Under the pieces are notes generated by a model, which was given only the letters and a program-made list of their open reading frames with translations, ran no database searches and was not told where the DNA came from. 64,000 bases of DNA, taken from NCBI GenBank assembly GCA_021849295.1, contig JAJZTA010000004.1, positions 62,001-126,000 of the forward strand, written 5' to 3'. Numbering within the stretch: position 1 is the first letter of the stretch; each line of letters begins with the position of its first letter. The translations under genes were made by a program, and so were the position numbers. The DNA is from Pseudomonadota bacterium. Its GTDB lineage: Bacteria > Pseudomonadota > Alphaproteobacteria > Micavibrionales > UBA2020. Positions 1,458 to 26,192 of this stretch are shown piece by piece.

Positions 1458-3038
<1,581 letters not shown>

Positions 3039-3156
3039 GTCCCACTCCTTTTATTGTTAGCATGTAAATAACCAAAAACTGGTTAATGAACAGTTTCCAA
3101 CCGGCTTGAATAAAAGGATTTTTTAATTTCATAAGGCGAAAAAAACGGACATACGA

Positions 3157-3194
3157 AAAAAAAAGCCCATTTGCTTTACGGCAAATGGGCTTTA
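3157..3194 (-). terminator. Rho-independent terminator downstream of rpmB
   Basis: Perfect hairpin AAAGCCCATTTGC-TTTACG-GCAAATGGGCTTT next to a run of A on the plus strand (U tract in the rpmB transcript). Confidence 0.85.
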
Positions 3195-3217
3195 AAAGCT
3201 CTAAATATTCGTTCCGG

Positions 3218-3565
3218 TTAGGCCGTCTTTTGGGCGGCGGCCTTTTTGACCGTACGGCGGGGCTTCTTCGGCGCGGGTTCCGGCTTGCCGACCTTGGCGA
3301 CCAGTTGCTTGCGGAACTTGCGCAGGCGCACCGGCAGCTTCGTCGGCGCGGTACCCATCAGGAAGGCGTCGATGCCGCCTTTATGCTCGACCGTGCGGAT
3401 GCCGTTCGTAGTGCAGGTAACCGTGATGCTCTTCTTCAAACCCGTGCTGAAAAACGAGGCTTCCTGCAGGTTGGGCAGGAAACGGCGCTTGGTCTTGTTG
3501 TTGGCATGGGAAACCTTGTTGCCGACCATAGGGCCTTTTCCCGTGATTTCACAAAGTCTCGACAT
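3218..3565 (-). CDS. rpmB: 50S ribosomal protein L28
   Basis: [34 protein letters not shown] is the L28 signature; C-terminal basic extension. Confidence 0.96.
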
Positions 3566-3766
3566 TATCTTCATCCTTCTCGAAAAAACTTATAGACGGG
3601 CAACATATGTCAAGAAATCAAGCGCCGTCAAGCCTTTTTAAATCTAATATTTACATAACCTAATATTTACGCGAACGCAAGGCCGTTGTATACTGGGCGC
3701 AGCGGGGAGCGGATGCCCCGCCGTGCGGTCGAGGGGGATTTTCCGCTCCATTCACACGCCATATAT

Positions 3767-5173
3767 ATGTCCCTTGCAAAGGCCGCCATGCCCTTTTTGA
3801 ACAAGACGTCCCAAAAATCCATTCCCGTTACGCCCGTCAACACCGCCACATTGCAGAAATGGCTGAAAAAACAAAGCCAAACACGGCAAAACTGGGTTGC
3901 CGCCACAGGCTTTACCGCCGCCGCAGGAGCGATTCTGGCCCTGCCGGACGAAAACGGCGGGGTCGAGCGGGTGCTGTTCGGTCTGCCCGATCAGGGCACG
4001 CTTTACGCCTATGCCGCCCTGCCCGCGCAGTTGCAGGACAATGCCGCCGGATATTACATCGATGCGCGCCTGAACCGCTTTGAAGCCACGCAAATCTGCA
4101 TCGGCTGGGCGCTCGGCTGCTACCGTTTCGACCGCTACAAGAAAAACAATAAAAATTGCGCGCGACTCGTCTGGCCCGCCAACGCCGATAAAAAGGCCGT
4201 CGACGCCGCGGTCAAGGCCGTCGCGCTGGTGCGCGATCTCGTCAACACGCCCGCCAACGACATGGGTCCCGCCGAACTTGCGGCGGCCGCGAAAAAGCTC
4301 GCCGGCTCTTTCAAAAAGGCGCACGTGAGCGTCATCACCGGCGAAGACCTGTTGAAGAAGAATTATCCCGCCGTCTACGAAGTCGGCAAGGGCAGCCCGC
4401 GCACGCCGCGCCTGATCGATATCCGCTGGGGCAACCCGAAGCACAAGCGCGTGACGCTGGTCGGCAAGGGCGTCTGCTTCGATACCGGCGGGCTTGACCT
4501 CAAGCACTCCGCGGGCATGCTGCTGATGAAAAAAGACATGGGCGGCGCGGCGCACGTCTTCGGCCTTGCGCAGATGATCATGGCGCACAACCTGCCCGTT
4601 TGTTTGCGCGTGCTGGTGCCCGCGGTGGAAAACTCGACCGGCGGCAACAGCTACCGCCCGGGCGACATCATCCAGACACGCAAGGGCCTCAGCGTCGAAG
4701 TCGGCAACACCGATGCCGAAGGCCGCCTCGTCCTCGCCGACGCGCTTTGCGAGGCCAGCAGCGAAAAGCCCGCCCTGATCGTCGATTTCGCCACGCTGAC
4801 GGGCGCGGCACGCATCGCCCTCGGGCCGGACCTGCCCGCGATGTTCAGCAACAACGACCGTATCGCGAACGCGCTGCTGAAATCCGCGGCGCGCGTCGAG
4901 GATCCGCTGTGGCGCATGCCGCTGTGGCAGCCTTACAAAGCCTGGCTTAACAGCAAGATCGCCGACAGCAACAACGTCGCCTCCAACACCTATGCGGGCG
5001 CGAGCGTCGCCGCGCTGTTCCTCGAAAAATTCGTCGACGCGGACATTCCGTGGGTGCATATTGACACCTTCGCGTGGAACCCGTCCGCCAAACCGGGGCG
5101 ACCCGAAGGCGGCGAGGCGCTCGGACTGCGCGCCGTGTTCGACATGATACAAAGGACGTTCGGAAAAAAATAA
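3767..5173 (+). CDS. Leucyl aminopeptidase (M17 family)
   Basis: Contains GKGVCFDTGGLDLK, NTDAEGRLVLADAL and ATLTGAARIALG metallo-aminopeptidase motifs. ORF opens at 3686; a likely start is ATG at 3767 or 3788. Confidence 0.94.
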   Translation: MSLAKAAMPFLNKTSQKSIPVTPVNTATLQKWLKKQSQTRQNWVAATGFTAAAGAILALPDENGGVERVLFGLPDQGTLYAYAALPAQLQDNAAGYYIDARLNRFEATQICIGWALGCYRFDRYKKNNKNCARLVWPANADKKAVDAAVKAVALVRDLVNTPANDMGPAELAAAAKKLAGSFKKAHVSVITGEDLLKKNYPAVYEVGKGSPRTPRLIDIRWGNPKHKRVTLVGKGVCFDTGGLDLKHSAGMLLMKKDMGGAAHVFGLAQMIMAHNLPVCLRVLVPAVENSTGGNSYRPGDIIQTRKGLSVEVGNTDAEGRLVLADALCEASSEKPALIVDFATLTGAARIALGPDLPAMFSNNDRIANALLKSAARVEDPLWRMPLWQPYKAWLNSKIADSNNVASNTYAGASVAALFLEKFVDADIPWVHIDTFAWNPSAKPGRPEGGEALGLRAVFDMIQRTFGKK

Positions 5174-6841: not shown

Positions 6842-7300
6842 TCCTCCCCATAGTTCAATAAAAAAGTTAAGCCTTCGTTTAAATCTGAAAACCGTACGAA
6901 GAGATTATTCATCAATGTAGCAAAATGATACGCATTTATACTTCTATGTAAATGATGCGACACCATTCCTATCGTACTTTTAGCGACTGACCATTTTGAC
7001 AGATTGACAAAATGATTTATCAATTTGCACTGCTTATGGACATTCGCAGCCGGATGCACTATCTATCAGCATCCCGTCCGCAGACACTCGAAAGTTGCCG
7101 GTTGGCCGATTCTCGCAGTGGGAAATATCACAGGCCCGCCGCCTATTAAAAACAATAAGTTTCAATGTATTAACAAATCATTAAAACTTCTTTAAGCAAT
7201 ATTTCATTGATTAAAGATAAAATATTAGGTGATAGTCTTTAAAATGCCGGTGGCTTGTGTGCGGTGTAGTATGCCTGAAATATGGGGCGGGCAATTTAAA

Positions 7301-8560
7301 ATGAAAGAAATGTCAAAGCATAAGAGAGCACGCGGATTCACGCTGATTGAATTGTCGGTTGTTATCGTTATTATGGGCCTATTGATATCAGGGCTCGCTC
7401 TCAGTTATTACTCCTTTTATTCTTCGTATCAATATAAGGAAACCTATTCACAGCTCGTCCGCCTGAATGATGCCTTAAGCAACTTCGGCAGCAGCTCGAA
7501 GTCCCGCCTGCCTTATCCTTCCGACCCTACACAGCCGGTTGGAAGTCCGAATTCCGGATGCGAATGCGGTGTCTGCAATCCGTTGCTGGAACCCGCTGCC
7601 TGCTTCGCATTGCAGCACGTGGGTATGGGCGGATGCTTTCATAACATTTGCAAAGTGCCGGGCGGACGTCATACAAAAGCCAACCCGAACGCGGGCAATG
7701 ATCCGGTTTACATCGGAGGCTTTCCCTGGAGGACGATAGACCAGACCGTCACCACGAACTCCGGCCGCGCCGCCGTGGCAGACACGATAGATCCATGGGG
7801 ATACCAGATCAACTACGCCGTGTCCTCGGGCTCTCTTAATGCCAGCACTTACGGTCAGGGATATGGTGTGATCAACATTCAATCGGCGCCTGCGCCTGCC
7901 GGCATAGACCTCGTCCAGCCTCCGGACAGCGTAGACTATGTCCTCTGGTCGGCCGGCCCAAACCACATGGGCGCTTATACGTCGAACGGCGTTATCGGCG
8001 TACCCTGCACGGCAGGCGAGGCAGACTCCGAGAATTGTCTTCACCAGTATAACATGGTCGACGCGCTCTATAACCGCGTGCCGGGCGCTAATTATTTCGA
8101 TGATATCATGATGTACTCCTCGTTTACGCTAAGCCAGCTCTGGGTCTTCACTGCGCCGGGCAGCAACGATATCCACAACAAAAACCCCGGAAATGTCGGC
8201 GTCGGCACAGCCACTCCGTCTGAAGCGCTGGATGTAAACGGCACCCTATATTCTCAAGGGGAGGTTTCCATCGAACAAGTGTGTCCGAATGCAGCCAACA
8301 GCCCGAATTGCTGGAACCCCAACCTGCTGGCCGGGTCAGTACCGGGGTCGGGTCAACCGAACCCCAGCAACAACACCGTCGGGGTCGTATGTCCTGGGGC
8401 CGGTCCGAACCAAACGTATTACATCACGGGCCTGCAAAACGGAAAAATCCAGTGCAGCAGTCATCCGGTAGCATTGCCGCAAGCCTCGGCGAACACCAGC
8501 TGCTCGAATGGCATGGCCTACGGTATCGGTTCTAATGGCCAAGTCCTTTGCGGTCCATAA
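7301..8560 (+). CDS. Large prepilin-like protein 1 with tail-fibre-like C-terminal motif
   Basis: RARGFTLIELSVVIVIMGLLISGLALSYY prepilin signal; C-terminal NVGVGTATPSEALDVNGTLYSQGEVSIEQVCPN and terminal Cys pairs. Confidence 0.85.
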   Translation: MKEMSKHKRARGFTLIELSVVIVIMGLLISGLALSYYSFYSSYQYKETYSQLVRLNDALSNFGSSSKSRLPYPSDPTQPVGSPNSGCECGVCNPLLEPAACFALQHVGMGGCFHNICKVPGGRHTKANPNAGNDPVYIGGFPWRTIDQTVTTNSGRAAVADTIDPWGYQINYAVSSGSLNASTYGQGYGVINIQSAPAPAGIDLVQPPDSVDYVLWSAGPNHMGAYTSNGVIGVPCTAGEADSENCLHQYNMVDALYNRVPGANYFDDIMMYSSFTLSQLWVFTAPGSNDIHNKNPGNVGVGTATPSEALDVNGTLYSQGEVSIEQVCPNAANSPNCWNPNLLAGSVPGSGQPNPSNNTVGVVCPGAGPNQTYYITGLQNGKIQCSSHPVALPQASANTSCSNGMAYGIGSNGQVLCGP

Positions 8561-9882
8561 TGAAGGAGCGAAAAAAACATATGGCATACAGCCGCCAAAC
8601 ATCCCGCGGATTTTCTCTCGTCGAGGTTATGATCGCAGTCGCGCTCTTCGGCATTTTCACTGGCGTCCTCATACAACAGTACACCCAATGGCGCCTGAGG
8701 CAGATACATAACCTGACGACATCGCGGCAATTTGCGGTTCAAAACGCGCTGTCGCAATATGTTCTCGAATACGGCGCACTGCCCTGTCCGGCCGACCCTG
8801 CCATACCTCCGACAGCCCCGACCGCGGGTCAGGCGGATTGCATGAATCTGGACAACTACGATCATACCACCGGCGTCGGTCCGGCGTATCCGCCCAATAT
8901 CTCATGGCCGCACTGCAACGCGAATCAGGAATGTATCGTGGCCGGCGCCCGCGCGACAATAGACAACCCGACCTTTGACCCCAATACAGGTCAAAGGACA
9001 TATAACGACCCCGTTCTGATCGGCACGATCCCTTATGTTGCCTTGGGCGTCAGTTTGAATGATACGATCGACGGCTGGGGCAACCGCATGACCTACGCGG
9101 TGTCCTATTATGCCACCGATCCGAATTTATTCAACTACTCGACCCTCGGCGGTGCCATCAACATCGAAGACTTCGATACCGGCCAGAACAAGATCGCACC
9201 GATGCTGAACAACGATCTGGATCCGGGCTATCAAAGCGCCAAATCTTTCATGTTCGTCTTCCTGTCGGCGGGCCCCAACGGCCGCGGCGCCTGGAATTAC
9301 GAAGGCGCGCAGCCCAACCCCTGCCAGATGGGCGTGCCGATCGCCCTGGACTCGACGTACACGGGGCCTTCGACGGGACGGGACAATGAAAACTGCAACA
9401 ATGATTCCACGTTCCTTTACACCGCAAACAGCAGCTCTGCGGGCGCGCAGGATATCTATTCGACCGCCACCGGTCCTTTCTTCGATGACGACTACTTCAT
9501 GGTGTGGCAGCTCGATCTCTCTCAGGACGCATGGATGGCCTACTCTCAAAACCTTAAAAGGGCAGGGAATAAAACCGGCGGAAAAGTCGGCATCGGCACG
9601 TCGGCGCCGACTGTAAACCTCGACGTCATGGGCAACATCAAGGCCGACAACGTCCAGTCAGATATTTACTGCGACGAGACCACCGGAAAATGTTTCAATC
9701 AGCAGCTGCTCTCGCCCGGGCTGGATTGCAATAACGGGATCATGACCGGCATCGCCAACGGTCAGCCGCAATGCCAAACAATGATCGACTCATCGCAAAT
9801 TCAAAAGCCGCAGCAGTGCCCCCCGGGGGAATTCGTTACTTCAATTGTAAACGGAGTTATACAATGCAATTTTCCTCCTTAA
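8560..9882 (+). CDS. Large prepilin-like protein 2 with tail-fibre-like C-terminal motif
   Basis: SRGFSLVEVMIAVALFGIFTGVLIQQYTQWR prepilin signal; C-terminal GGKVGIGTSAPTVNLDVMGNIKADNVQSD. Start ATG overlaps previous stop (TAATG); alternative start 8581. Confidence 0.85.
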   Translation: MKERKKHMAYSRQTSRGFSLVEVMIAVALFGIFTGVLIQQYTQWRLRQIHNLTTSRQFAVQNALSQYVLEYGALPCPADPAIPPTAPTAGQADCMNLDNYDHTTGVGPAYPPNISWPHCNANQECIVAGARATIDNPTFDPNTGQRTYNDPVLIGTIPYVALGVSLNDTIDGWGNRMTYAVSYYATDPNLFNYSTLGGAINIEDFDTGQNKIAPMLNNDLDPGYQSAKSFMFVFLSAGPNGRGAWNYEGAQPNPCQMGVPIALDSTYTGPSTGRDNENCNNDSTFLYTANSSSAGAQDIYSTATGPFFDDDYFMVWQLDLSQDAWMAYSQNLKRAGNKTGGKVGIGTSAPTVNLDVMGNIKADNVQSDIYCDETTGKCFNQQLLSPGLDCNNGIMTGIANGQPQCQTMIDSSQIQKPQQCPPGEFVTSIVNGVIQCNFPP

Positions 9883-12227
9883 GAAACAGTCATAAGGATA
9901 ACAGCTTCATCCGGGGCTATACGCTGCTTGAGTTGGCCGTCGGCCTGCTCATTATGGGGGTCATGCTGGCCAGCATCAGCCATGTCTCCACCCAGTATTT
10001 GAAAGCCGAAAAGGAGAATACGACGCTGAACAACGAGAGCCTTCTCACCTCCGCCATCAACAGCTATCTGGCGGAAAAAGGCCACTACCCCTGTCCGGCG
10101 CCGTTCGTGCCGCGCACGGACACCGCAGACTACGGCATAGCCGGAGACTGCACGGACACCAGCGTCAACGTGGGCGAGTGCAACAAAAATGGCGGCACGG
10201 CGTCAGACAACTATTGCGTTCAGCAAAGCGACCGGGTGCTTTATCCGAAAATCCCGACCGCTCCCGGCTATCAACCTGCCGACTGGCCGCCCTCATGGTC
10301 TGTTAACAACGGCGGGCAGCCGGTCTGGCCGCCCCAGGCCTGGAACGGGCGCGTGCGCCGCGGTGAAGTGCCTTTCCGTACGCTCGGCATTCCTGAATAT
10401 GAAACGCTGGACGGCTACGGCGACGAATTTCAATATGTTGTCACGGAAAATCTGGCCGTCAACGGGCGATACAACAAGGATCTCGGCGGCATAGACGTTG
10501 TCAACGGCAGCGCCACCGTTCCGGTGACCGCAACCAACCTGACAGGCCATCCTTCTCTGGTTCCCACGCCGAAAGACAGCTCAAGCGGCGGGGCCGTGCA
10601 ATACATCCTCATCAGCAACGGCCCCGACAGGAGGGGCGCTTACACACAGTACAGCGACCTGAACCACCCCGTCTATCCGTGCCCGCTGATTACGGCGCCG
10701 TATGTCCCCTCCACACTGGACGCAGCCAACTGCCAGATCACCGCAGGAAACTGGACGGATGCCATTTACTACTCGGCCGAATACGCTCCGGCCTCCGGTC
10801 CGAGCCATTTCGATGATTTGATTAAATACTATACATCCACCACAACCCCGCTCTGGGAAGTGTCGAACGACACCAGCGGCTCCATCCACGACGTCCTTAA
10901 CGCGACCGACCAGCAGAACCACGGCAAAGTCGGCATAGACCGCTCTGATCTCGCCGTTCTCAATCCGGCACCTGATGCGGCACTGCAAGTCGGCAGCCCC
11001 AACTCCAACACCGTGGCCGTGCTGGCGCAACCCACGATCGCGGGCACGGGGGATCTGGTCACGCAAAACCTCTGCTCGCAAGGCTCTCTCAACAGCAATT
11101 GCGTTCAGGCCGACCTGAGCCCGACATGCCCGGGAGGCAAAATAGCCACCGGCTTTGAAGGGAGTAGCAACCACCTGAACTGTACCGATCATACAGCAAC
11201 GACCTGCCCCCCCAATGAACATATGTACGGGATAGACGCAAACGGGCAAATTCTCTGCTCGTCCACGCTGTCGTGCCCGAACAGCTCGACGTGGATGTGC
11301 GGCAATTGGGTCGGCATTACTTCCAAAAATGTCGGCGCGACGGAAACGGTGACGTCCGGCTACAATTCGTCAAAGACCTTCCAGTGCGAGGACCAGAACG
11401 GCCCGCAATGGGTTCTCCAGTCGCAAACCGGAAGTTGTACCCAGTGCAATCAAGGGTCGCAGACCAACAACATAAGCTGCAACCAATACAAAAACTGGTG
11501 GCCTTGTGGCAGTTGCTGGAGCGGCACCGTCCAACAGACGGTCACCACGAGCTGCAACCCGACGAACGTGCAGACGACTTACAGCAATACCGGCTCCTGT
11601 GTTTGCAACTCGACCTCCTACCCCCAGAACGGCATACAATGCCCGGCAGGGTTTACGGGGACCTACTCGACGAACCAAACATACGTCTGCGGCGCTAACC
11701 CAAGCACGCCCGCATCTGGACCGAATTACAGCTCGACCCAGTCGACCAGCTGCTTCTGCGACCCGACCGCGACGCAGAATCAAACGCTCAGCTGTCAGTC
11801 GGCGGGCTATAGCGACGGTTATTCCGGCCATGTGAAGCAAACACGCCAAATGCAGTGCACCTCGGCCAACACAGGCAACTGGGGTCAGTGGACGACTATC
11901 CCTAACGGCGATACCTGCACTTGCAGCAATATCATACAGTACCAGCAGATCGGCTGTCCCTCGCCGCAACAAGGCACCCAATACCAGCAGCGGCAGTTCG
12001 ATTGCAACGCGAACTCCTGGGGCAACTGGGTCACGACCAGCAACACCTGCGCTTCGCTCAGCTATCAATGGAGCCTCAGCAACGGCGAAATGCCGAGCGG
12101 GACAACCAGCATCTCTCAGTCCCCAACCCTCGGCTCCAGCTGCTCGACGAACGGCGCGGTGTCGCCCTGCTACGCGCCGACCGGAACCGGCAGTTACTAC
12201 AGTTACTCCAGCTGTATTTGCCAGTAA
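9864..12227 (+). CDS. Large prepilin-like protein 3 with Cys-rich tandem-repeat C-terminus
   Basis: IRGYTLLELAVGLLIMGVMLASISHVSTQYLK prepilin-like signal; ATG 9864 lies inside the end of the previous gene; long Ser/Thr/Gln/Asn/Cys-rich C-terminus. Confidence 0.85.
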   Translation: MQFSSLRNSHKDNSFIRGYTLLELAVGLLIMGVMLASISHVSTQYLKAEKENTTLNNESLLTSAINSYLAEKGHYPCPAPFVPRTDTADYGIAGDCTDTSVNVGECNKNGGTASDNYCVQQSDRVLYPKIPTAPGYQPADWPPSWSVNNGGQPVWPPQAWNGRVRRGEVPFRTLGIPEYETLDGYGDEFQYVVTENLAVNGRYNKDLGGIDVVNGSATVPVTATNLTGHPSLVPTPKDSSSGGAVQYILISNGPDRRGAYTQYSDLNHPVYPCPLITAPYVPSTLDAANCQITAGNWTDAIYYSAEYAPASGPSHFDDLIKYYTSTTTPLWEVSNDTSGSIHDVLNATDQQNHGKVGIDRSDLAVLNPAPDAALQVGSPNSNTVAVLAQPTIAGTGDLVTQNLCSQGSLNSNCVQADLSPTCPGGKIATGFEGSSNHLNCTDHTATTCPPNEHMYGIDANGQILCSSTLSCPNSSTWMCGNWVGITSKNVGATETVTSGYNSSKTFQCEDQNGPQWVLQSQTGSCTQCNQGSQTNNISCNQYKNWWPCGSCWSGTVQQTVTTSCNPTNVQTTYSNTGSCVCNSTSYPQNGIQCPAGFTGTYSTNQTYVCGANPSTPASGPNYSSTQSTSCFCDPTATQNQTLSCQSAGYSDGYSGHVKQTRQMQCTSANTGNWGQWTTIPNGDTCTCSNIIQYQQIGCPSPQQGTQYQQRQFDCNANSWGNWVTTSNTCASLSYQWSLSNGEMPSGTTSISQSPTLGSSCSTNGAVSPCYAPTGTGSYYSYSSCICQ
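11274..12050 (+). repeat. Coding tandem repeats (~50 aa units with conserved Cys) in pilin-like protein 3
   Basis: Units such as IQCPAGFTGTYSTNQTYVC...TSCFC, LSCQSAGYSDGYSGHVKQTRQMQC...DTCTC, IGCPSPQQGTQYQQRQFDC...NTC, ISCNQYKNWWPC...GSCVC. Confidence 0.75.
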
Positions 12228-12273
12228 CAGGGGTGATTTCTGGACCGGTTAGCCGATATACGGCGGCGCGCGC

Positions 12274-13401
12274 CTAGTCTTTGGCGGCACCTGATGTCCT
12301 GTTTTGCTTCTGGGGATCGTCTTCGGTCATGTTCGCCTGCCGGTACTGGGTCGGCGTGAGACTGGTGACGTCGCGGAAAGCGCGGTTAAACGACGCCAGA
12401 GAATTGAATCCCACCTCCGAGGCCACCACCTGTATGGGGATCTCCGGGCTCATCAGCATCCTTTTCGCATCTCCCACGCGGAACTCGTTAAGCAGCCGCG
12501 GCACACTCTTGCCGAAGGCCACGTTGATCACCCGTGAAAGCGTGTTCTCCGACACCTGCAGCTCGCGCGCAAGATCAGCGCGGCTGAAGGCCTGCTCGTG
12601 ATAGAGCTTGTCCACCTCCATCAGCTTTTTGACTTTGGCAGCGATCTCTTTTTCCTCCGCCGTCATCGTTTGTCTGGTGAAGCGGGTCGGCTTGTCGCTC
12701 AGCTGAACCGGCGACGGAAAGACGCGGAACAGCATCGTGCTCGCAAGATAGACGAAAGACAGGCCCAAAACGACAAGCAGCGTATCCGCCGTCGGCTGGT
12801 CCAGACTGTTCATGGAACGCAGGAACATGATGCCGACGGCACCCGCATTTGCAACGATCAGCACCATCACCAGCCAGTAGCGCTCCATGCCGCTCCTGGC
12901 ACTCCGCAAAGTGCTAAAAAGGTTTTTATGGCCCCACAGCGCCAGCATGGCAAGGCCGCCGGCAATCGCACCCAGCCATTGCAGCCAAAGAAACAAGCTC
13001 GGGCATAAAGTGTCTCCCGCTGTGCAAATGCCTGCCGTTTTATCAATAACGACCCCCGCCAGCAGCGACAGCGGCGCCAGCGTCAAAAACAGGAACTGCC
13101 GCCCTTCCGGCAGGCCCGCGCCCTTCGCGATTTGCAGAACCAGCAGATAGCACAAAAGCGGGCCCAAAACGCGCATAAACCACAATGCCAGTTGTATGCC
13201 CTGATCGTAGTCATGCAAGCGCATGGAAAACTGCAATGCAAAAGCCAGCCCTAGAACAAAGAAATAGGCCAGCGCCAGCGAGGCCTGTTTCCAGTCCCTA
13301 ACGCGGAACACGATATGCACGATAATCAGCACGCACTGGGCGAATCCCGTGATAGCCAACCATTCTATGACACTAAAGGTGTTTTCAAATATGGAAGGCA
13401 T
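12274..13401 (-). CDS. Membrane-anchored AraC-family transcriptional regulator
   Basis: Multiple hydrophobic segments in the N-terminal half followed by a C-terminal AraC HTH (FSRADLARELQVSENTLSRVINVAFGKSVPRLLNEFRVGDAKRML...VASEVGFNSLASFNRAFRDVTSLTPTQYRQ). Confidence 0.9.
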   Translation of the reverse strand: MPSIFENTFSVIEWLAITGFAQCVLIIVHIVFRVRDWKQASLALAYFFVLGLAFALQFSMRLHDYDQGIQLALWFMRVLGPLLCYLLVLQIAKGAGLPEGRQFLFLTLAPLSLLAGVVIDKTAGICTAGDTLCPSLFLWLQWLGAIAGGLAMLALWGHKNLFSTLRSARSGMERYWLVMVLIVANAGAVGIMFLRSMNSLDQPTADTLLVVLGLSFVYLASTMLFRVFPSPVQLSDKPTRFTRQTMTAEEKEIAAKVKKLMEVDKLYHEQAFSRADLARELQVSENTLSRVINVAFGKSVPRLLNEFRVGDAKRMLMSPEIPIQVVASEVGFNSLASFNRAFRDVTSLTPTQYRQANMTEDDPQKQNRTSGAAKD

Positions 13402-13404
13402 GAC

Positions 13405-14157
13405 TTAAGGCTGCCTCCCGCGCTCTTTCAGAATATGTTGCACTGCCTGCGGCGACATGCCGACCTGATGGATCAGAAAAAACGTCATATTGGAGATGTC
13501 TTGCGGCGAAATATCTTTCTGCGTGCGGAGCATATCGATCATGAGAGCGCGCGCCGCTTCCTTATCGCCCTGCTTTTCAAGAACGAATGCGGGCATCTGC
13601 CGCGCCCATGCGGGCATTTTGACGCTTTGCGGCATGTGCGCGAGGATCTGCGCCAGACGCAAGGCGAGGTTCTCGTTATACATCCGGTGCTGCGCAAGAT
13701 AGATCGCCTGCACAAGCCAGCGCCATTTGGCGCCGAACGGCTCCTGACCGACGGCGGCGAGATAACGGACGACGACCGCGATATCGGCCGGCACGCGCGT
13801 CGCCCCGAAATAATAGGCAGCCAGCGTCGGCACGTGGTCGGACACCGGATCAAGGCTGCTCAGGAGCAAAAACCACTTTCCCAGTTCGTGATAATTATAA
13901 TCCTTCAGAGGCGCCATGTTCACGCCGAGGTTACCGAGATTTTGCAATGACAAAGCAAGAATGCGGTATGAAAATTCCGGGTCGCCCAGCGTCATCATAA
14001 CGGCGCCTGTCCTGTCCGGCACCGGCGGCACGCCTGACCAGCGCTGGTAAACGTCATGGCTGGCGCACCAGAAGAGAAAGTTCACACAAAGAATGGCGGC
14101 AAGAACGAGCTTTATACCGCGCAGTCTGTCCTGCATTTTCCCCCTGCGGGCAGCCAT
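13405..14157 (-). CDS. Hypothetical membrane-anchored protein, translationally coupled to ABC permease
   Basis: 250 aa, one N-terminal TM segment, helical remainder; ATG overlaps the permease stop codon (TAATG). Confidence 0.75.
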   Translation of the reverse strand: MAARRGKMQDRLRGIKLVLAAILCVNFLFWCASHDVYQRWSGVPPVPDRTGAVMMTLGDPEFSYRILALSLQNLGNLGVNMAPLKDYNYHELGKWFLLLSSLDPVSDHVPTLAAYYFGATRVPADIAVVVRYLAAVGQEPFGAKWRWLVQAIYLAQHRMYNENLALRLAQILAHMPQSVKMPAWARQMPAFVLEKQGDKEAARALMIDMLRTQKDISPQDISNMTFFLIHQVGMSPQAVQHILKERGRQP

Positions 14158-14978
14158 TAAAATTGCCGCCGCGTAAAATCAAAAGCCGATGCCGCCAGCA
14201 ACAGCGCAACAAAAACCATCCCTTGCATCGCAATAAAACCGGTCACGCCCAAGTGCACTACCACCCAATGCGCGTAAACGCTTGCGTGCGGCATAAACTG
14301 CAAACCGGCAGATCTCCGCACGCCATAGACAAGCCATGTCGTCTGCCCCATCATGTCAAGGCGCGGCGTCACCATGGAAATCAGCTTCATCATACTGCCG
14401 ATAATGGCGTAAAACCAGTTCGTCGGTCCCTGACTGAGGACGCCAAGCAGCGTGCCTGTCGTGCGAGAAAGCGCGTAAAGCCCTAGTGTGGCAAGGGCAG
14501 AGCCCGCCGCGCTCGACAGCACCATGGAAAAAAACAATGCCGCCACAGCCATCATCGCGAACTCGGCAGCGAGGCTTGCGCCCCAGATCAGAAGCCCTTC
14601 CATGTTGGGATGCCCTATGACGCCGACCACGACGGTGATCATGGCGGCAATCAGAAAAGCCAAAAAGGAAAAGGCCAGCGCGTGACTGACGAGAAAAGAC
14701 AAACGCGAGATCGGCCGTGAAAGCAAAAACTCGACCTCTTTGTTTTCAAAGGCACGGCGGATGTAAAAGCAGCAAAACAGCACAAGGCCGATGACGCCAA
14801 GAAAGCGCAGACTGCCTGACCCGAAAACCAGCGCAAAACTGGCTCCCTCCGTGACGCTCGCCGACCCCATGAAGACGGACAGCGCAGCCCCCATCAGGAT
14901 CATGAGCGCAAGGGTTACCATCAGCCTGTCCCGCATCGCGGCAGTCAGCACGTATTTAACCAATGGTTTGGAGATCAT
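14157..14978 (-). CDS. ABC-2 type transporter permease
   Basis: 273 aa with about six hydrophobic helices; FENKEVEFLLSRPISRLSFLVSHALAFS is typical of ABC-2 permeases. Confidence 0.75.
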   Translation of the reverse strand: MISKPLVKYVLTAAMRDRLMVTLALMILMGAALSVFMGSASVTEGASFALVFGSGSLRFLGVIGLVLFCCFYIRRAFENKEVEFLLSRPISRLSFLVSHALAFSFLAFLIAAMITVVVGVIGHPNMEGLLIWGASLAAEFAMMAVAALFFSMVLSSAAGSALATLGLYALSRTTGTLLGVLSQGPTNWFYAIIGSMMKLISMVTPRLDMMGQTTWLVYGVRRSAGLQFMPHASVYAHWVVVHLGVTGFIAMQGMVFVALLLAASAFDFTRRQF

Positions 14979-14997: not shown

Positions 14998-16833
14998 TTA
15001 CATATTGAAGGGGCGCGTATCGTTGCCGAACTCCTTGTAAACGCGCCGGTCCACGGGTTGGACATTGGATCCCGGCACAATCGTCGCCTGCAGGAAGATA
15101 ATCAGCTCGCTTTTGTTGATGTTGTCGCCGTGATTGTGGAACAGGCTCCCCAGAAACGGCACATCTCCCAAGACAGGGACACCTATCTGATTGACCTGAT
15201 TGGAGTTCTGCATCAAGCCGCCCATCACCATTGTCTGGCCGGACTGCATCTTGATAACGGAATCCATCTGCTGCACGTCCATGACCGGTATCGGGCTGTT
15301 GGGCACGGCTGACAGAGGCAGGCCGGAACTCAGAATACTAAGAGCAATGGAGGGATCTTGAGCCTTATCGATTTCCTTCGTCACGGTCGGACGCACCGCC
15401 AGCATGACCTCGCCGGTACTGACATCGGCCGTCGGCGTCACGTTCATCAGGACGCCTTCGGGCGTCGATTCCTGCTTGGAGTTATAAGTAATCGTCGGAG
15501 GAACCCCAACGGCCGTGGACGGCGTCGTTGTCACCTTGATCTCGAAGTAGATCAGGTTCTTGGCTACGTTGACGACGGCAGACTGGTTATTCATCACCGT
15601 AATGCGCGGACTGGCCAGAGAGCGCACCGTGCCGAACTCGCTCAAGGCGGTAATCACAGGCTTGAACCCGTGACCAAGATCAAGATTCAGCGCAACAGCA
15701 CTGCCCGTCGTATCGGCGGGGCTAAACGGCGGCGCCGGCGTATTGATCGTAGCGGCAGGAATAAGGCGCGTCAGGTTTGCGCCCAATTGCCCCCAATCAA
15801 TACCAGTGGAATATTGGTCGTTAAGGGTCACCTCAAGAACCTTGGCTTGAATCAAGACCTGTGCCAGCGCCTGATGGAGGTAGTCGTCCAGATATTTCTG
15901 TACCAGCTTTTGTTGCCGTTGCGTGGCATAAACACTGATGATTCCGGTATCCTTACTGATAGAAAACGTCGCGGGCGCATTCTTCTGCGGCGCCGATCCA
16001 CCGGAAACAGAAACATTCAGCGACGGTGGCATATTCGATGGCTTTGGCGCAGGTGCAGGCGCGCCCGGCTTGCCGGGAAGTGCGGGCGGTGCAAGCGGCG
16101 GTACAACCGATGCCACGGGGTTATTCATGGTCGCCAGAGCCGTATAGTTGTCGGAAGCTTTCAAAATCTGGTCCATGCCGGATTTAAGATCCTTCCAGAA
16201 ATCCACGTCGTCTTTAATATCGACACTGAAGTTGGATCCCGAACTGGCGCTCGGACCGCCACCAGTGCCACCGGCACTGCCACTAGAGATACCTGTCTGG
16301 ATAGTGGACGTGCTTGTGCGCGAAAGGCTCATGTAATCGACTTTATAGTACTTGATATAAGGCCTATCGAGTTCGATACGCAGCACGTTGTTCTTGAACG
16401 TATAGCGCAGTCCAGCCATATTGCAGATGCGATCAACGACCTCGTTGAACGGACGGTCTTTGGCGGTAAAAATAATCGACCCCTGAATGTCGGGATCCAT
16501 TTCAAGGTCAACGCCCGCCTGATGCGCCAATTCAAACATCAGGTCGCGCAGCGATACGGTCTGGTCGACAGAAACCGTCACCAGCGGCGACGGCAGTTGC
16601 AAGTCGCTCGGCGTAGCGACGAAAGACTGGAACGGAGGCAGCGGCGCTTCTTTCGCGGTTTTGGGCTGACGCTGGGGCGACAGGCCATCACGATAATATT
16701 GCATGCTCTTGTTCGCGCTGCGGTCATATGTCATCTGGTTTTGGGCAAGAGTGCACCCCCCCAAAGATATGGTAGAAAGCATAGCGCCGAGAACTATATA
16801 GCTGACGCGGAAGGAGTAACGCGATTTTGACAC
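14998..16833 (-). CDS. Type IV pilus secretin, MshL/PilQ-like
   Basis: Lipoprotein-like start (LGGCTLAQNQ), N0/STN region (LRDLMFELAHQAGVDLEMDPDIQGSIIFTAKDRPFNEVVDRICNMAGLRY) and secretin domain (GVPVLGDVPFLGSLFHNHGDNINKSELIIFLQATIV). Confidence 0.92.
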   Translation of the reverse strand: MSKSRYSFRVSYIVLGAMLSTISLGGCTLAQNQMTYDRSANKSMQYYRDGLSPQRQPKTAKEAPLPPFQSFVATPSDLQLPSPLVTVSVDQTVSLRDLMFELAHQAGVDLEMDPDIQGSIIFTAKDRPFNEVVDRICNMAGLRYTFKNNVLRIELDRPYIKYYKVDYMSLSRTSTSTIQTGISSGSAGGTGGGPSASSGSNFSVDIKDDVDFWKDLKSGMDQILKASDNYTALATMNNPVASVVPPLAPPALPGKPGAPAPAPKPSNMPPSLNVSVSGGSAPQKNAPATFSISKDTGIISVYATQRQQKLVQKYLDDYLHQALAQVLIQAKVLEVTLNDQYSTGIDWGQLGANLTRLIPAATINTPAPPFSPADTTGSAVALNLDLGHGFKPVITALSEFGTVRSLASPRITVMNNQSAVVNVAKNLIYFEIKVTTTPSTAVGVPPTITYNSKQESTPEGVLMNVTPTADVSTGEVMLAVRPTVTKEIDKAQDPSIALSILSSGLPLSAVPNSPIPVMDVQQMDSVIKMQSGQTMVMGGLMQNSNQVNQIGVPVLGDVPFLGSLFHNHGDNINKSELIIFLQATIVPGSNVQPVDRRVYKEFGNDTRPFNM

Positions 16834-16892: not shown

Positions 16893-18023
16893 TTACAGAG
16901 ACAATCTGGATGTGTCAATGCCAAGCGACGACGAGGGCATCGCGCCCTGATCCGCCATCTGGTGCTGCTGGATTTTGATTTTCATATCCGCAGAATAGTC
17001 GGATTCCGACAATGCCGTTTGTGCGGTAATCAGCCCTTTTTTGTAGAGCTTCAAAAGCGACTGATCGAACGTGACCATGCCGGTCGTATTGTTGTTGGCC
17101 ATAACGTCGTGAATTTTACTGGTCTCGCCCTTCATGATGTGCTCTTTGACCAACGCTTCGTTGAGCAGGATCTCCGGAACCATCACCAGGCCGCCCTGCG
17201 TCCCCGGCACAAGCCTGAGCGCAATGATCGCCCTGAGGTTCATGCTCAGCGCGATGCGTATCTGATGGTGACGCTCCTCGGGGAAGAAGCCGATAATGCG
17301 CTCGATCGCCTGCGTCGCATTGGTGGTGTGCAGCGTCGCATAGCAGGTATGGCCGGTTTCGGCGGCCGCGATCGCCTGAATCATGACGTCCTGATAGCGG
17401 ATTTCGCCGACGAGGATCACGTCGGGCTTTTGCCGGAGGGCGTTTTTCAGCGCGACGCTGTAGGAGGCGGTGTCGATCCCCACTTCACGCTGCGTGATGA
17501 TGGCTTTTTTATGTTCGTGATAGAACTCGACCGGATCTTCGATGGTGATGATGTGACCGCCCATCATGGAGTTGCGGTAGTCCATCAGCGCGGCGGTCAA
17601 AGTCGATTTACCCGACGACGTCACGCCGCAAATCAGGATCAGGCCGCGCTTTTCCAGCGCCAGCTTTTCCATGAGCTTGGGCAAATACAACTGCTCGAAG
17701 TTGGGAATCCTGCTGGTGATGCGCCGGATGACGAGCGCCGGTTTCTGGCGCTGGCGCAGAATGTTGATGCGGAAACGTCCTTCCGCGCCAAGGTCGAGCG
17801 CCATGTTGAGTTCCATGCTGGTATCGAACTCGAGGCGCTGGCGGGGCGTCAGGATTTCCATCATGATCGCCTGAACGTCCTCTTCCTTCAGCGCGTCTCC
17901 CTCGAGCGGGTGGAGAATGTTGTCGATACGCAAGGTCGGCGGCACGCCGACCGTGAGGTAGATGTCCGACGCCTCCCGCTCCACCATTGCCTTGAGATAG
18001 TTGTATATCGCAGCACTGCTCAA
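16893..18023 (-). CDS. pilU: PilU-like type IV pilus ATPase
   Basis: GVTSSGKSTL Walker A, EDPVEFYHEHKKAIITQREVGIDT Asp box, LVGEIRYQDVMIQAIAAAETGH; divergent from but similar to PilT. Confidence 0.85.
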   Translation of the reverse strand: MSSAAIYNYLKAMVEREASDIYLTVGVPPTLRIDNILHPLEGDALKEEDVQAIMMEILTPRQRLEFDTSMELNMALDLGAEGRFRINILRQRQKPALVIRRITSRIPNFEQLYLPKLMEKLALEKRGLILICGVTSSGKSTLTAALMDYRNSMMGGHIITIEDPVEFYHEHKKAIITQREVGIDTASYSVALKNALRQKPDVILVGEIRYQDVMIQAIAAAETGHTCYATLHTTNATQAIERIIGFFPEERHHQIRIALSMNLRAIIALRLVPGTQGGLVMVPEILLNEALVKEHIMKGETSKIHDVMANNNTTGMVTFDQSLLKLYKKGLITAQTALSESDYSADMKIKIQQHQMADQGAMPSSSLGIDTSRLSL

Positions 18024-19204
18024 AATGAATATCCTTCCTCGCCCGGCGGGTGCGCGGCGGGTGCGCCGGGCGCCGCGGCGGGCGCCCGCGGCGCGGCGGC
18101 TGGCGCGGGTTTGCGCATCATCGGCTGTTGCGGCGGCGGCGGCGCTTTCGGCGCAGCATCGTCGGCCGATTCCGCCTCGGCGCCCGATTTCAGCGCGTCG
18201 CGCGCGGTCTCGGCCGTAATCAGCCCGTGCTCCTGAAGATCGTGGACGGCATCTTCCATCGTCTGCATGCCGTAGCGTGCACCGGTCTGGATCATCGAGT
18301 AGACCTGCGCCAGCTGGTTCTCGCGGATCAGGTTGCGCACGGCGTTGGTGCCGACCATGATTTCGTGGGAAGCGACGCGTCCGCCGCCCGCTTTGGGCAA
18401 CAGCGCCTGCGCGACGACGCCTTGAATGGAGCTGGCCAGCATCGCGCGCACCATTTCTTTTTCCGCCGCTGGGAAAACGTCGATGATACGGTCGATGGTT
18501 TTGGCGGCGTTGTTCGAGTGCAGGGTTCCGAAGACAAGGTGACCCGTTTCGGCGGCGGTGAGTGCAAGAGCGATCGTTTCATAGTCCCGCATTTCGCCGA
18601 CCAGAATGACGTCAGGGTCTTCGCGCAGCGCGCTTTTAAGCGCGCGGGCGAATGATTTGGTATCGTTGCCGACTTCACGGTGGTTGACCAGCGCCATTTT
18701 CGACGGATGGAAAAATTCGACCGGGTCCTCGACGGTCAGGATGTGCACGGCTTCGTGTTCATTGATATGGTTGATCATCGACGCCAGCGTGGTCGATTTG
18801 CCGCTGCCCGTCGGCCCCGTGACAAGCACGAGCCCCTTTTCAAGTTCCGCGAGCCTGCGGATAACGGGCGGCAGCGAGAGCTGCTCCATGGTCGGGATTT
18901 TCGTCGGAATGACACGGAATACGGCGGCGGAGCCCTGCCGGTTGGTGAAGGCGTTGACGCGGAAACGCGCGTCGGGACCGAAGGCGATGGCGAAGTCGAT
19001 TTCGAAGTCGCGCTCGTACTCCGCGCGCTGGTCTTCATTCATGACCTGATACAGCATGCCGCGAATATCGTCGCCCTGCAGGATGTCCGGCTTGACTTGG
19101 CGCAATACGCCGTCGATGCGCACTTTCGGATTATTGCCTCCGCTCAAGTGCAAATCCGATGCCTTGTTGTCGAGCGTAAACTTGAGAAACTCTGTAATAT
19201 CCAC
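18020..19204 (-). CDS. pilT: PilT type IV pilus retraction ATPase
   Basis: GPTGSGKSTTLASMI, EDPVEFFHPSKMALVNHREVGNDT, and the PilT-specific AVRNLIRE motif. Confidence 0.92.
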   Translation of the reverse strand: MDITEFLKFTLDNKASDLHLSGGNNPKVRIDGVLRQVKPDILQGDDIRGMLYQVMNEDQRAEYERDFEIDFAIAFGPDARFRVNAFTNRQGSAAVFRVIPTKIPTMEQLSLPPVIRRLAELEKGLVLVTGPTGSGKSTTLASMINHINEHEAVHILTVEDPVEFFHPSKMALVNHREVGNDTKSFARALKSALREDPDVILVGEMRDYETIALALTAAETGHLVFGTLHSNNAAKTIDRIIDVFPAAEKEMVRAMLASSIQGVVAQALLPKAGGGRVASHEIMVGTNAVRNLIRENQLAQVYSMIQTGARYGMQTMEDAVHDLQEHGLITAETARDALKSGAEAESADDAAPKAPPPPQQPMMRKPAPAAAPRAPAAAPGAPAAHPPGEEGYSF

Positions 19205-19325: not shown

Positions 19326-20111
19326 TCAAAGCGATATGAAATGCGGCGGGAAAAGGCACAAAACCACGATAAAAGCGATGATCAGCGACGGGCCGAAAGG
19401 CACTTCGGCCTCTCCCGTGCGCTTCTTCCACAAGAGCGCCAAAACAACCCCCGCTCCGCCGGAAACGACCATCAGCAGCGATGCCGCCATCGCGTTCAAC
19501 CCCAGCCAGAATCCGGCGGCGGCGAAAAACTTGACGTCGCCCAGCCCCAGCGCCTCGCGCTTCAGGACGGCAAACGCGCCCCGCCGCAACAGCCAGGCAA
19601 AGCCGCCATAAAGCAGCGCACCGGCCAGCGGCGGCACGATATGCGCACTAAAAAAAACCACCGGATGCGCGGCCAGCGCCGCATTGACGGCAAACGCCGC
19701 CACGCCGATAAGCAAGATGGCAAGGTTCAGGCTGTCGGGAATAATCTGGTGCCCGAAATCGATGTCGATGATGCTGACCAGCACGGGCGCCAGCGCGAAC
19801 ACGGCGATCGTTTGCGGTGTCAGTCCGTAAACGAAGAAAAAAAGCATGCACACCCCCAGCGTCGCCAGCTCGATCAGAGGATAGCGCACGCCGATGCGCG
19901 CGCCGCAGTGGCGGCATTTGCCTTTGAGGAAAAGCCATGAAAACAGCGGTATGAGATCCGGAAGGCCAAGATTGTGATGGCAGGACGGACATTGCGAATG
20001 CACGCGCGTCACCATGGAGATTTCACGCGGCAGACGATGGGACAAAGCCGTGGCGAAGCTGCCGAAGATCAGCCCCAGCCCCGCTGCAATCACCGCCTTG
20101 ATATAGAACAT
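19326..20111 (-). CDS. pilD: Prepilin peptidase (A24 family)
   Basis: FGSFATALSHRLPRE, two CxxC pairs (CPSCHHN, CRHCGAR), DIDFGHQIIPD and GLGDVKFFAAAG aspartate motifs. Confidence 0.95.
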   Translation of the reverse strand: MFYIKAVIAAGLGLIFGSFATALSHRLPREISMVTRVHSQCPSCHHNLGLPDLIPLFSWLFLKGKCRHCGARIGVRYPLIELATLGVCMLFFFVYGLTPQTIAVFALAPVLVSIIDIDFGHQIIPDSLNLAILLIGVAAFAVNAALAAHPVVFFSAHIVPPLAGALLYGGFAWLLRRGAFAVLKREALGLGDVKFFAAAGFWLGLNAMAASLLMVVSGGAGVVLALLWKKRTGEAEVPFGPSLIIAFIVVLCLFPPHFISL

Positions 20112-20118
20112 GCCGGCT

Positions 20119-21432
20119 TTACCGGAGTGTCGATAAACGCTGCCTTATATCGTCAAGCGGCAGGGATGCGTTCAGAGCGCCTTCGCTCGCGAGGTCCAAA
20201 ATGCGGCGGTACAGTTCCGCGGCACGGGATGTCTTGCCAAGATGGTCATAGACAACGGCGCGGTTGTAAAGGATAACGCCGTCGCCCGGCTCCAGGGCAT
20301 CCGCCATGTCGAGATACTTCAGCGCGTTGCTGTAATCTCCGGAAACGCCGTAGAGCATCCCCAGCTGCGCCGTGACCGCGGCGTTGGCCGGATAGAGGTG
20401 ACGCAATTTCTGCATCGCGTCGATCGCCGACTGCGTGTTCTCGCCCTTGATCAGGCCGAGGGTGTTGGTCATCGCCGACACGCTCTCCGGATCGAGTTTC
20501 AGGATGCGTTTGTAAGTATCGAGCGCGGCGCCTGTCTCGCCCAGTCTTTGCAGCGCGACGGCACGGCCCATCAGGACGCGCAGGTCGGTCGTATTGCGGT
20601 GGAACAGGTCGTCGAACAACCCCAGCGCCGCCGCATAATGCCCGTCGGACAAGGCTCGACGCGCGGACGAAAGCCGCGATTCGTAGCTACTGTCCGTGCT
20701 GTAATCCCTGTGCACGACCAGATATTGCGTCGGCAACGGGCGCACCTGCGCCGGCGTCGCCAGAATGTCGGTGACGCGCAGACCTTTATCCGTCGCCGCG
20801 CGGTTTTTCGCACGCATCGCGCGGATGCTGGCTGCGGACGGCTTGGCCGTACTGCTTGCGTTCTCGCCCGCTTTCAGCTTGGAGGCGCTTTGAACAATGG
20901 CCATCTCGGCGGGAGACGGCTGGGCGGAGGATGTGCCCATCTCGGCGGCGGGCGCGATCGCCGCCGCAACATTATCCAAAGACGGCTGGGCGGAAGAAGG
21001 TCCCGCAGACGCGGGGATCGATGGCACCATTCCCGAAACGGCAGCCCCCGAAGATGCGTCCGTGCCGGACATGGGCGTTCCGGAAGACGCCGTCCCCGAA
21101 AATGAAGCGTTCGCGTCCGACGATCCGGAGGCTGCCGGCGCCACATTTATCAGCGGCGCCATTTGCACCTGCGGTACCGAGGGCGATACCTGCGCTGCAT
21201 TTGACGGCTGCGCCAGAGTCGCGGAAGACGGCGGCTGGGCCATGCTTGTGGGCAGTGACGGCGTCGCCATCCTCGGCGGAGCCGATGTCGCAGTGATCTG
21301 TGCCGGCGCCATCGGCGTTGCCGTCTGCGCCAGAGCAGACCCCGGTGCGCTGGCCGCAAGCAACAGGACAAATCCGGCTTGCCGCAACACAGCCGACTTG
21401 CCCTCAACACGTTTTACCCCAGACATTTTCAT
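20119..21432 (-). CDS. TPR-repeat protein with Ala/Ser/Pro-rich linker, pilus-operon associated
   Basis: Signal peptide, low-complexity linker with SSAQPS repeats, C-terminal TPR motifs (AALDTYKRILKLDPESVSAM, NALKYLDMADALEPGDGVILYNRAVVYDHLG). Confidence 0.85.
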   Translation of the reverse strand: MKMSGVKRVEGKSAVLRQAGFVLLLAASAPGSALAQTATPMAPAQITATSAPPRMATPSLPTSMAQPPSSATLAQPSNAAQVSPSVPQVQMAPLINVAPAASGSSDANASFSGTASSGTPMSGTDASSGAAVSGMVPSIPASAGPSSAQPSLDNVAAAIAPAAEMGTSSAQPSPAEMAIVQSASKLKAGENASSTAKPSAASIRAMRAKNRAATDKGLRVTDILATPAQVRPLPTQYLVVHRDYSTDSSYESRLSSARRALSDGHYAAALGLFDDLFHRNTTDLRVLMGRAVALQRLGETGAALDTYKRILKLDPESVSAMTNTLGLIKGENTQSAIDAMQKLRHLYPANAAVTAQLGMLYGVSGDYSNALKYLDMADALEPGDGVILYNRAVVYDHLGKTSRAAELYRRILDLASEGALNASLPLDDIRQRLSTLR

Positions 21433-24977: not shown

Positions 24978-26192
24978 TTAACTCGTCATCTTACCCAGAT
25001 TGTTGTAAATCGGACCGAAGACGGCCGCTGCGATCCACAAGACGATCAGACCCATGATAACCGTCATCGTAGGCTCGATCATTTGAATCATGGCGTCAAT
25101 GGCGTCGTTCACGTCTCTATCGTAAAATTCTGTCACCTGCTCCAGAACGCCGGTCAAGTTGCCTGATTCCTCGCCGACTTTCACCATGCGCGTGACTAGC
25201 GTCGGGAACTCGCCGGACTTCGCCATGGAATCCGACAGCGCAAAGCCTTCCTGCACGCGTTCCCGCACCGTCGCCAGTGCTCCTGTCAGAACAAGATTGG
25301 TCACTGTCAGCTTGGCGGCGTCGAGACATTTCAAAATTTCCAGACCGCTGCTGAAAAGGATGCCGAACGTCGAGCAAAACTGCGCCAGTGAAATCTTGCG
25401 GATCAAATTCCCCGACACGGGCGCGTTCAGGAACATGTAGTCCGTATAATACCGGAATCCTTCCGATATCACGCGTCCGATCTTGAACAGGATATAGAAC
25501 AGGATCATGCCCAAGATGATGTAAATGGCATATTTACCCATGAAATCAGAGGTGGCGATCAGCGCCCGCGTCTGTACGGGCAGCTTCATGTTCATATCTT
25601 TAAGGAAGCTCACGATTTGTGGAACGACCTGCACCATCATCACGTAAACGACACCCGTAATAACGACGAGAAGAACTTTCGGATAGCGCGTCGCTTTCTT
25701 GATCTTGCTGCGCATGGCGTCCACCCATTTGAGGTGGCGGATCACCTGCCCGAAGGACGTCACCATGTTACCCGTTTCCTCGCCGGCAGCGATCAGGGAG
25801 ACAAATATATTCTCAAAAACCGTCGGATGACGGGCCAAAGCGGCGGAGAAGGATTGCCCTTCCGCCACCTCGCGGTAAACATCCGACATGATGTCGCGCA
25901 GCCGCGGCGCTTCCGTGGTGTCGCGCACATCCGACAAACCTTCCAGCAACGGCACGCCCGCCTTTTGCAGCTGCTCCAGATGGACGAACATCTGCACCAG
26001 ATCGCGGATCTTGATTTTCTTGGCAAAGATGTTGACAATACCGCTGGCCTTCTCGGACATTTCCTTGCAATCGATCAGCGCAAGGCCGCCCTCTTCAAGG
26101 CGCGACGACAGGTCGGACTCGTTCGCGGCGGCGATCACGCCACGGATAGGCCGGCCCTTGGCGTTTATAGCCCTATAACTGAATTTCGGCAT
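24978..26192 (-). CDS. pilC: Type II secretion/type IV pilus inner-membrane platform protein (GspF/PilC)
   Basis: MPKFSYRAINAKGRPIRGVIAAANESDL; FSAALARHPTVFENIFVSLIAAGEETGNM; VGEESGNLTGVLEQVTEFYDRDVNDAID. Confidence 0.94.
   Translation of the reverse strand: MPKFSYRAINAKGRPIRGVIAAANESDLSSRLEEGGLALIDCKEMSEKASGIVNIFAKKIKIRDLVQMFVHLEQLQKAGVPLLEGLSDVRDTTEAPRLRDIMSDVYREVAEGQSFSAALARHPTVFENIFVSLIAAGEETGNMVTSFGQVIRHLKWVDAMRSKIKKATRYPKVLLVVITGVVYVMMVQVVPQIVSFLKDMNMKLPVQTRALIATSDFMGKYAIYIILGMILFYILFKIGRVISEGFRYYTDYMFLNAPVSGNLIRKISLAQFCSTFGILFSSGLEILKCLDAAKLTVTNLVLTGALATVRERVQEGFALSDSMAKSGEFPTLVTRMVKVGEESGNLTGVLEQVTEFYDRDVNDAIDAMIQMIEPTMTVIMGLIVLWIAAAVFGPIYNNLGKMTS

Follow-up and report, generated by a model that had tools for sequence, protein, structure and literature searches.

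We analyzed three adjoining genes, designated A, B, and C, in a 64,000-nt window of contig JAJZTA010000004.1 (positions 62,001 to 126,000). The contig belongs to a metagenome-assembled genome (MAG; 88% complete) from the alphaproteobacterial order Micavibrionales. Each gene encodes a class III prepilin in which a pilin core is followed by a cysteine-rich C-terminal module, and the three genes are conserved together within the order. We propose, with a probability of about 0.6, that the trio, probably as a hetero-oligomer, makes up a type IV pilus tip complex for priming and adhesion. The order includes the predator Micavibrio aeruginosavorus ARL-13 (G056:C1); NCBI taxonomy still places Micavibrio under Bdellovibrionota.

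Architecture of the three prepilins

The initial annotation of the window described three consecutive overlapping plus-strand genes of about 420 to 790 amino acids (aa), and this description holds (Table 1). The genes lie head to tail, each starts with ATG, and A and B overlap in TAATG, as described, with one shared A. The overlap of B and C is 19 nt, not 18 bp as stated there. The GC content of the genes is close to that of the window, and promoter and terminator scans yielded matches near chance level.

The class III prepilin signal noted at the start of each protein was also found: A, B, and C have a glycine at position −1, a glutamate at position 5 (E5), and a hydrophobic helix. In the protein scan, PF07963 matched the N termini of A (1.7e-7), B (4.4e-7), and, weakly, C (4.8e-3), which was over the cut-off in the genome search (1.3e-4). 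N_methyl was the sole Pfam match in the three proteins and in 69 alignment members, and GspG profiles matched the N termini of the trio proteins. In the AlphaFold model of A (38 sequences, mean pLDDT of 82), the pilin core is confident and the C-terminal third is weak. Residues 1 to 267 of this model matched the EpsG pseudopilin (Z of 6.3 over 97 residues, root mean square deviation of 3.0 Å) and the CFA/III pilin (Z of 6.1), in line with the expected combination of a pilin domain and an extra C-terminal module. The Z-scores are modest, and the pilin-fold assignment is credible because of conserved motifs (D-x-W/Y-G, S-x-G, and DD). A GspG/type IVb (T4b)–like pilin core is common to A, B, and C; C as modeled (mean pLDDT of 72) continues from it through a badly predicted link into an all-beta extension.

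Mature prepilins from the window and from 39 loci of relatives, 99 in all, were aligned. Conserved positions include the helix, P-x-P, G-x-x-P, D-x-x-G with Y-A-V, S-x-G, a Cys pair ending in E-N-C, D-D, W, a V-G-x-G segment, and six cysteines. A and B terminate in this six-Cys module, and C continues beyond it for ~320 residues with repeated C-x-C, C-P-x-G, and W-x-x-W. The claim that all three proteins end in Cys-paired NGxxxC segments therefore fails for C, where GIDANGQILC is located about 320 residues ahead of the C terminus with the Cys-rich extension behind it. The six module cysteines align, each being present in 97 to 99 of the 99 proteins, and the columns of the motif considered below align too; judged by this alignment, the motif and the module cysteines are beyond chance. 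The Cys count is even in 94 of the 99 proteins, the first module pair is lost jointly in the B protein of one locus (L036), and two core Cys pairs covary (phi of 0.68 and 0.81). Together, the even counts, the joint loss, and the covariation support disulfides, fitting export to the periplasm. The module had no match to anything known, and neither it nor the extension has a Pfam family or an entry in any library searched, so that two protein regions absent from these libraries are defined here. Scattered low-Z blade-like matches of the C extension (Z of about 4 or less) were left uninterpreted.

A and B contain the motif G-x-V-G-x-G-T-x-x-P-x-x-x-L-D-V-x-G, as reported initially (GNVGVGTATPSEALDVNG in A and GKVGIGTSAPTVNLDVMG in B), and C has a stretched and degenerate version (GKVGIDRSDLAVLNPAPDAALQVG). 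The strict motif is found in 22 of 34 A proteins, 21 of 30 B proteins, and 4 of 34 C proteins. Searched as a profile, the module region matched solved trimeric fibers of Bdellovibrio (Bd2133, 8ond, with 1.8e-10; also 8oml, 8ojn, and 8ol4) and, weakly and essentially in the capping-loop segment, myelin regulatory factor (MyRF). The Bdellovibrio match is limited to this segment, ~25 to 35 residues long, and weak PHROG tail matches fall on the same segment of B. In the mosaic adhesive trimer (MAT) fibers of Bdellovibrio, capping loops of the form V-G-G/N-x-x-x-P-x-x-x-L sit on trimeric beta-helices; MyRF is also mentioned in that study (PMC10769870). The original hint of a tail-fiber–type domain thus has structural meaning, since the motif is that of the MAT capping loop, but it extends to these 25 to 35 residues and not to a fiber domain. 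Foldseek found no whole fiber domain (best E of about 0.1 or worse for A) and nothing at E ≤ 0.001 against the Protein Data Bank and viral models. Of the checks proposed initially, structure prediction after the prepilin helix returned, for A, a confident pilin core and a weak C-terminal third in which no whole fiber domain was found.

Conservation of the trio and its genomic setting

By tree and profile scores, the trio proteins fall into three subfamilies, one for each gene. In a maximum-likelihood core tree, B was recovered as a clade of 26/26 (support of 90.9/80) and C as a clade of 31/31 (87.9/98); A may be the ancestral form. Since the A, B, and C profiles were partly trained on the sequences scored, sorting was repeated across families: of 20 f3 loci, 19 were resolved into A, B, and C by profiles built on f1 and f5, as were all 16 f1/f5 loci by f3 profiles (35 of 36 in total). 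All three genes are present in each of the 36 contig-complete loci sampled across the order, a count that excludes four loci truncated at contig ends as well as L095 to L098, which are duplicates from another collection. The gene orders are ABC (15 loci), BCA (12), BAC (5), CAB (1), BCCA (2), and BCABCA (1), the last being a duplication of the whole trio; in L044, a 38-bit match to the putative major pilin was not counted as a trio member. In the CAB locus (L041, 9309-10271 and the next frame), B occupies two open frames of 321 and 171 aa, reflecting a broken gene or an assembly error.

The trio is restricted to its lineage. In the set of relatives, which includes the window's own genome, an A query had matches in 83 of 94 genomes. 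Among 142 genomes of the order, 104 had the six-Cys module, most commonly in exactly three copies (49 genomes). Across a phylum sample of 349 genomes, the whole module was found in the window genome alone; three others matched its first ~30 positions, which correspond to the capping motif. Matches outside the order in a class-level sample lie in the pilin core or in the N-terminal portion of it (best in G203, G112, and G243), except for two short matches near the motif segment. In one of these genomes (G203, from another order of the class), WD40-like and FG-GAP repeats are attached to the same pilin core (L108 1682-3673 and L110 1752-4295), which suggests that the core is a general carrier of adhesive modules.

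The resemblance to PilV of R64 drawn initially holds for its logic, a pilin N terminus with a C-terminal module, but not for DNA rearrangement. There are no inverted-repeat pairs in 7000-12500, in agreement with the initial annotation, and a shufflon is thereby ruled out. Shufflon_N, the PilV constant region, had no match in the three proteins or the 69 alignment members. No shufflon recombinase was present among the part of the window open reading frames (ORFs) scanned with Pfam. The suggested contrast between constant N termini and variable C termini among close relatives was not seen: the modules diverge about as fast as the pilin core, or modestly faster. A phage or plasmid origin was likewise rejected, the phage, plasmid, and viral collections holding no related protein with the queries used.

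A putative major pilin is encoded divergently upstream of the trio, and genes for a secretin, two PilT/PilU-family adenosine triphosphatases (ATPases), a prepilin peptidase, and a PilC/GspF protein lie on the other strand, about 2.5 to 14 kb downstream (Table 1). The secretin is MshL-like; A, B, and C had no Pfam or NCBIfam match to the MshO, MshP, or MshQ families. No extension ATPase was identified in the window, and other T2SSE-family ATPases are encoded elsewhere in the genome; an S74 chaperone was not found in the genome. PF07963 detected four prepilins in the window genome and four in the 98%-complete G004, each time the trio plus a ~250-aa protein; these counts are lower bounds, as the profile found one of the three trio members in G044. 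Of eight genomes searched for PilY1 (PF05567), one gave a match, adjoining a separate set of conventional minor pilins; the 88%-complete window genome gave none. A small conventional minor-pilin cluster with a PilY1-like protein is present at L112 (G064:C8), in a genome that also has a doubled trio. Within the pilus gene cluster of the window are an ABC transporter ATPase (21429-22211) and permease (14157-14978), a pair we take to be reminiscent of Myxococcus PilH and PilI. Three ORFs between this ATPase and the PilC-like gene (22213-24976), with no Pfam and no convincing NCBIfam match, are possible inner-membrane alignment proteins.

Table 1. Trio genes, their parts, and neighboring pilus genes in the window.
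Feature	Position	Strand	Basis and remarks
Gene A, modular prepilin, 419 aa	7301..8560	+	Mature chain from 7334; PF07963; subfamily A
A capping-loop motif, GNVGVGTATPSEALDVNG	8189..8242	+	Sequence; profile match to Bdellovibrio fibers
A six-Cys module, three putative Cys pairs	8282..8551	+	Alignment; Cys columns
Gene B, modular prepilin, 440 aa	8560..9882	+	Mature chain from 8608; PF07963; B clade 26/26
B capping-loop motif, GKVGIGTSAPTVNLDVMG	9580..9633	+	Sequence; weak PHROG tail matches to segment
B six-Cys module	9670..9867	+	Alignment; Cys columns
Gene C, long modular prepilin, 787 aa	9864..12227	+	Mature chain from 9915; PF07963 (genome search); C clade 31/31
C degenerate capping-loop segment	10923..10994	+	Alignment; strict motif in 4/34 C proteins
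C six-Cys module	11073..11258	+	Six invariant Cys across 31 C proteins
C Cys-rich repeat extension, ~322 aa, C-x-C ... C-P-x-G-x-T-G ... W-x-x-W	11259..12224	+	Alignment; predicted all-beta; 197-520 aa in relatives
Putative major pilin, 253 aa	5990..6751	-	PF07963; similar prepilin adjoins trio in several family loci
MshL-like secretin	14998..16833	-	TIGR02519 1.8e-60, under its cut-off
PilT/PilU-family ATPase	16893..18023	-	TIGR01420 394 bits, over cut-off
PilT/PilU-family ATPase	18020..19204	-	TIGR01420 474 bits, over cut-off
Prepilin peptidase	19326..20111	-	PF06750 and PF01478
PilC/GspF-type platform protein	24978..26192	-	PF00482 2.2e-52

ARL-13, whose six-Cys trio is located near 730.7 to 735.1 kb, has three more neighboring prepilins at 896.9 to 900.1 kb (L107 1365-4728) with the same core, a capping segment, and then a fiber-like tail in place of the six-Cys module; a counterpart is present in G052 (L115 2173-5539). 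This second trio is not a copy of A, B, and C: it is a clade by itself (95.9/99), with cores that did not separate into the three subfamilies. Three-gene sets therefore arose at least twice. Eight genomes encode related fiber-type prepilins, and in seven of them the six-Cys module matches fewer than twice. This distribution (Fisher P of 0.003, calculated post hoc on nonindependent genomes) suggests that fiber-type prepilins and the six-Cys trio are alternative tips. The 2011 genome paper on M. aeruginosavorus lists three operons with eight prepilin-signal proteins and singles out GMV0902 and GMV0903 for high expression (PMC3189940). We see 2 + 3 + 3 family members in ARL-13, the same total, and GMV0902 and GMV0903 could be members of the second trio, a candidate assignment from gene-number interpolation along the chromosome. 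At L106, a core-family prepilin (2000-3106, minus strand) has a C terminus weakly matching phage tail fiber and tail collar PHROGs (9.7e-6 and 0.0015); the adjoining core-family protein (3149-4708, plus strand) has a DTSGS-type von Willebrand A–like region and the prepilin motif GFSLLAM, with A at the expected E5.

Role of the trio

As we see it, A, B, and C would serve as minor pilins in the type IV pilus encoded by the downstream machinery genes, probably made from one message and then processed by the prepilin peptidase. Their N-terminal helices and GspG-like cores would bring them together in the initial positions of the filament. There, the trio would replace a tip complex of the PilVWX-PilY1 type, priming assembly and presenting its C-terminal modules outward. 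The capping-loop segment may form a short three-chain beta fiber, and the disulfide-bonded modules, above all the long C extension, would provide the adhesive surface; for Micavibrio relatives, prey or other cells are the obvious candidate target. By analogy with the PilY1 set of Myxococcus (PMC7541494) and with TcpB (PMC9565799), such a role would fit the inventory of four prepilins and the rarity of PilY1. A heterotrimer is the simplest arrangement, since a locus supplies a single copy of each of the three distinct paralogues. More tentatively, the three paralogous pilins may form one short tail-fiber–like stalk with disulfide-bonded heads that takes the place of PilY1 and the conventional minor pilins, in sets that arose at least twice. 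If so, a heterotrimeric tip in an order that contains a bacterial predator would be a device for recognizing prey or cells.

Several observations weigh against the proposed tip complex. The trio is not universal: 38 of the 142 genomes of the order have no module match, and the trio is absent from G052, which we take to be the predator strain EPB. The inventory of four prepilins is a lower bound, coming from an incomplete MAG and from a profile that misses prepilins, as in G044. A did not form a resolved clade in the core tree after outgroups were added. Last, the trimer is argued from a short motif, degenerate in the majority of C proteins, in a region where the models are poor (pLDDT of about 35 to 70).

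Instead of co-assembling, each protein could form its own homotrimeric tip, the three being alternative adhesive pilins. TcpB and CofB are tip homotrimers (PMC9565799, PMC8179133), the pilin core of the trio resembles the CFA/III and TCP pilins, and the capping-loop motif comes from homotrimeric fibers. We nevertheless consider this unlikely, as every complete locus keeps all three genes, nearly always one of each, and genes for alternative tips should be lost or multiply one without the others. It is more improbable still that A, B, and C are minor pseudopilins of an enzyme-exporting piston resembling a type II secretion system, with GspIJK-like priming and no adhesion. The GspG-like core and the GspG profile matches at the N terminus would suit such a piston, in which GspI-J-K is a heterotrimeric tip (PMC8179133). 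However, the two neighboring PilT/PilU-family ATPases, both over the cut-off, and the MshL-like secretin are expected of a retractile pilus, and the modules of the trio far exceed the usual size of pseudopilin domains. Phage-derived or mobile fiber genes with a pilin leader, acting outside the pilus, are hardly credible, despite the weak PHROG tail matches to the motif, given the phage, plasmid, and viral searches, which were empty with the queries used, the ancient, order-wide conservation, the GC content, and the adjoining pilus genes.

Comparison with known systems

The core fold of the trio is common to GspG-type pseudopilins and T4b major pilins, as the EpsG and CFA/III matches indicate, but the trio has much larger loops and added modules. 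TcpB of the Vibrio cholerae TCP and CofB of the enterotoxigenic Escherichia coli CFA/III pilus are large minor pilins with beta-rich C-terminal domains, proposed to act as a trimeric initiator at the pilus tip (PMC9565799, PMC8179133). Their layout, a pilin domain and then beta-rich C-terminal domains, is like that of the trio. However, each is the product of one gene, forms a homotrimer, and has an H-type lectin-like domain, while the trio consists of three paralogues with a six-Cys module and a capping-loop motif. Neither a sequence match to CofB or TcpB nor an H-type lectin-like domain is listed for the trio, whose model is weak in that part.

PilY1 and the minor pilins of Myxococcus have been proposed to prime the pilus and occupy its tip (PMC7541494), the role proposed here for the trio. 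In contrast to that PilVWX-PilY1-type complex, PilY1 is missing from seven of the eight genomes searched, and the putative adhesive modules of the trio are fused to the pilins themselves. R64-type PilV also carries an adhesive C-terminal module on a pilin N terminus; the trio differs in having no inverted repeats or Shufflon_N match and C termini that are not hypervariable relative to the core. Modular pilins are already known: a published survey lists 264 architectures, including a pilin with an S74 peptidase (PMC8179133). PilB and PilC of Streptococcus sanguinis, too, have a module grafted on a pilin. Unlike these, the trio is a conserved set of three, and its six-Cys module and Cys-rich extension have no Pfam family; we found no counterpart in which three modular pilin paralogues are conserved as a set and PilY1 is lacking.

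The MAT fibers of Bdellovibrio have the V-G-x-G-x-x-P-x-x-x-L capping-loop segment in common with the trio, clearly in A and B and in degenerate form in C (PMC10769870). Where the trio has a prepilin helix and a pilin core, MAT fibers have a signal peptide followed by a conserved ~130-aa beta-rich N-terminal domain of their own, and the trio proteins hold this one short motif only. The trio would link pilus tips to the trimeric fiber motif of Bdellovibrio adhesins, and the named genes of the cultivable predator M. aeruginosavorus ARL-13 offer a test of prey recognition by predators.

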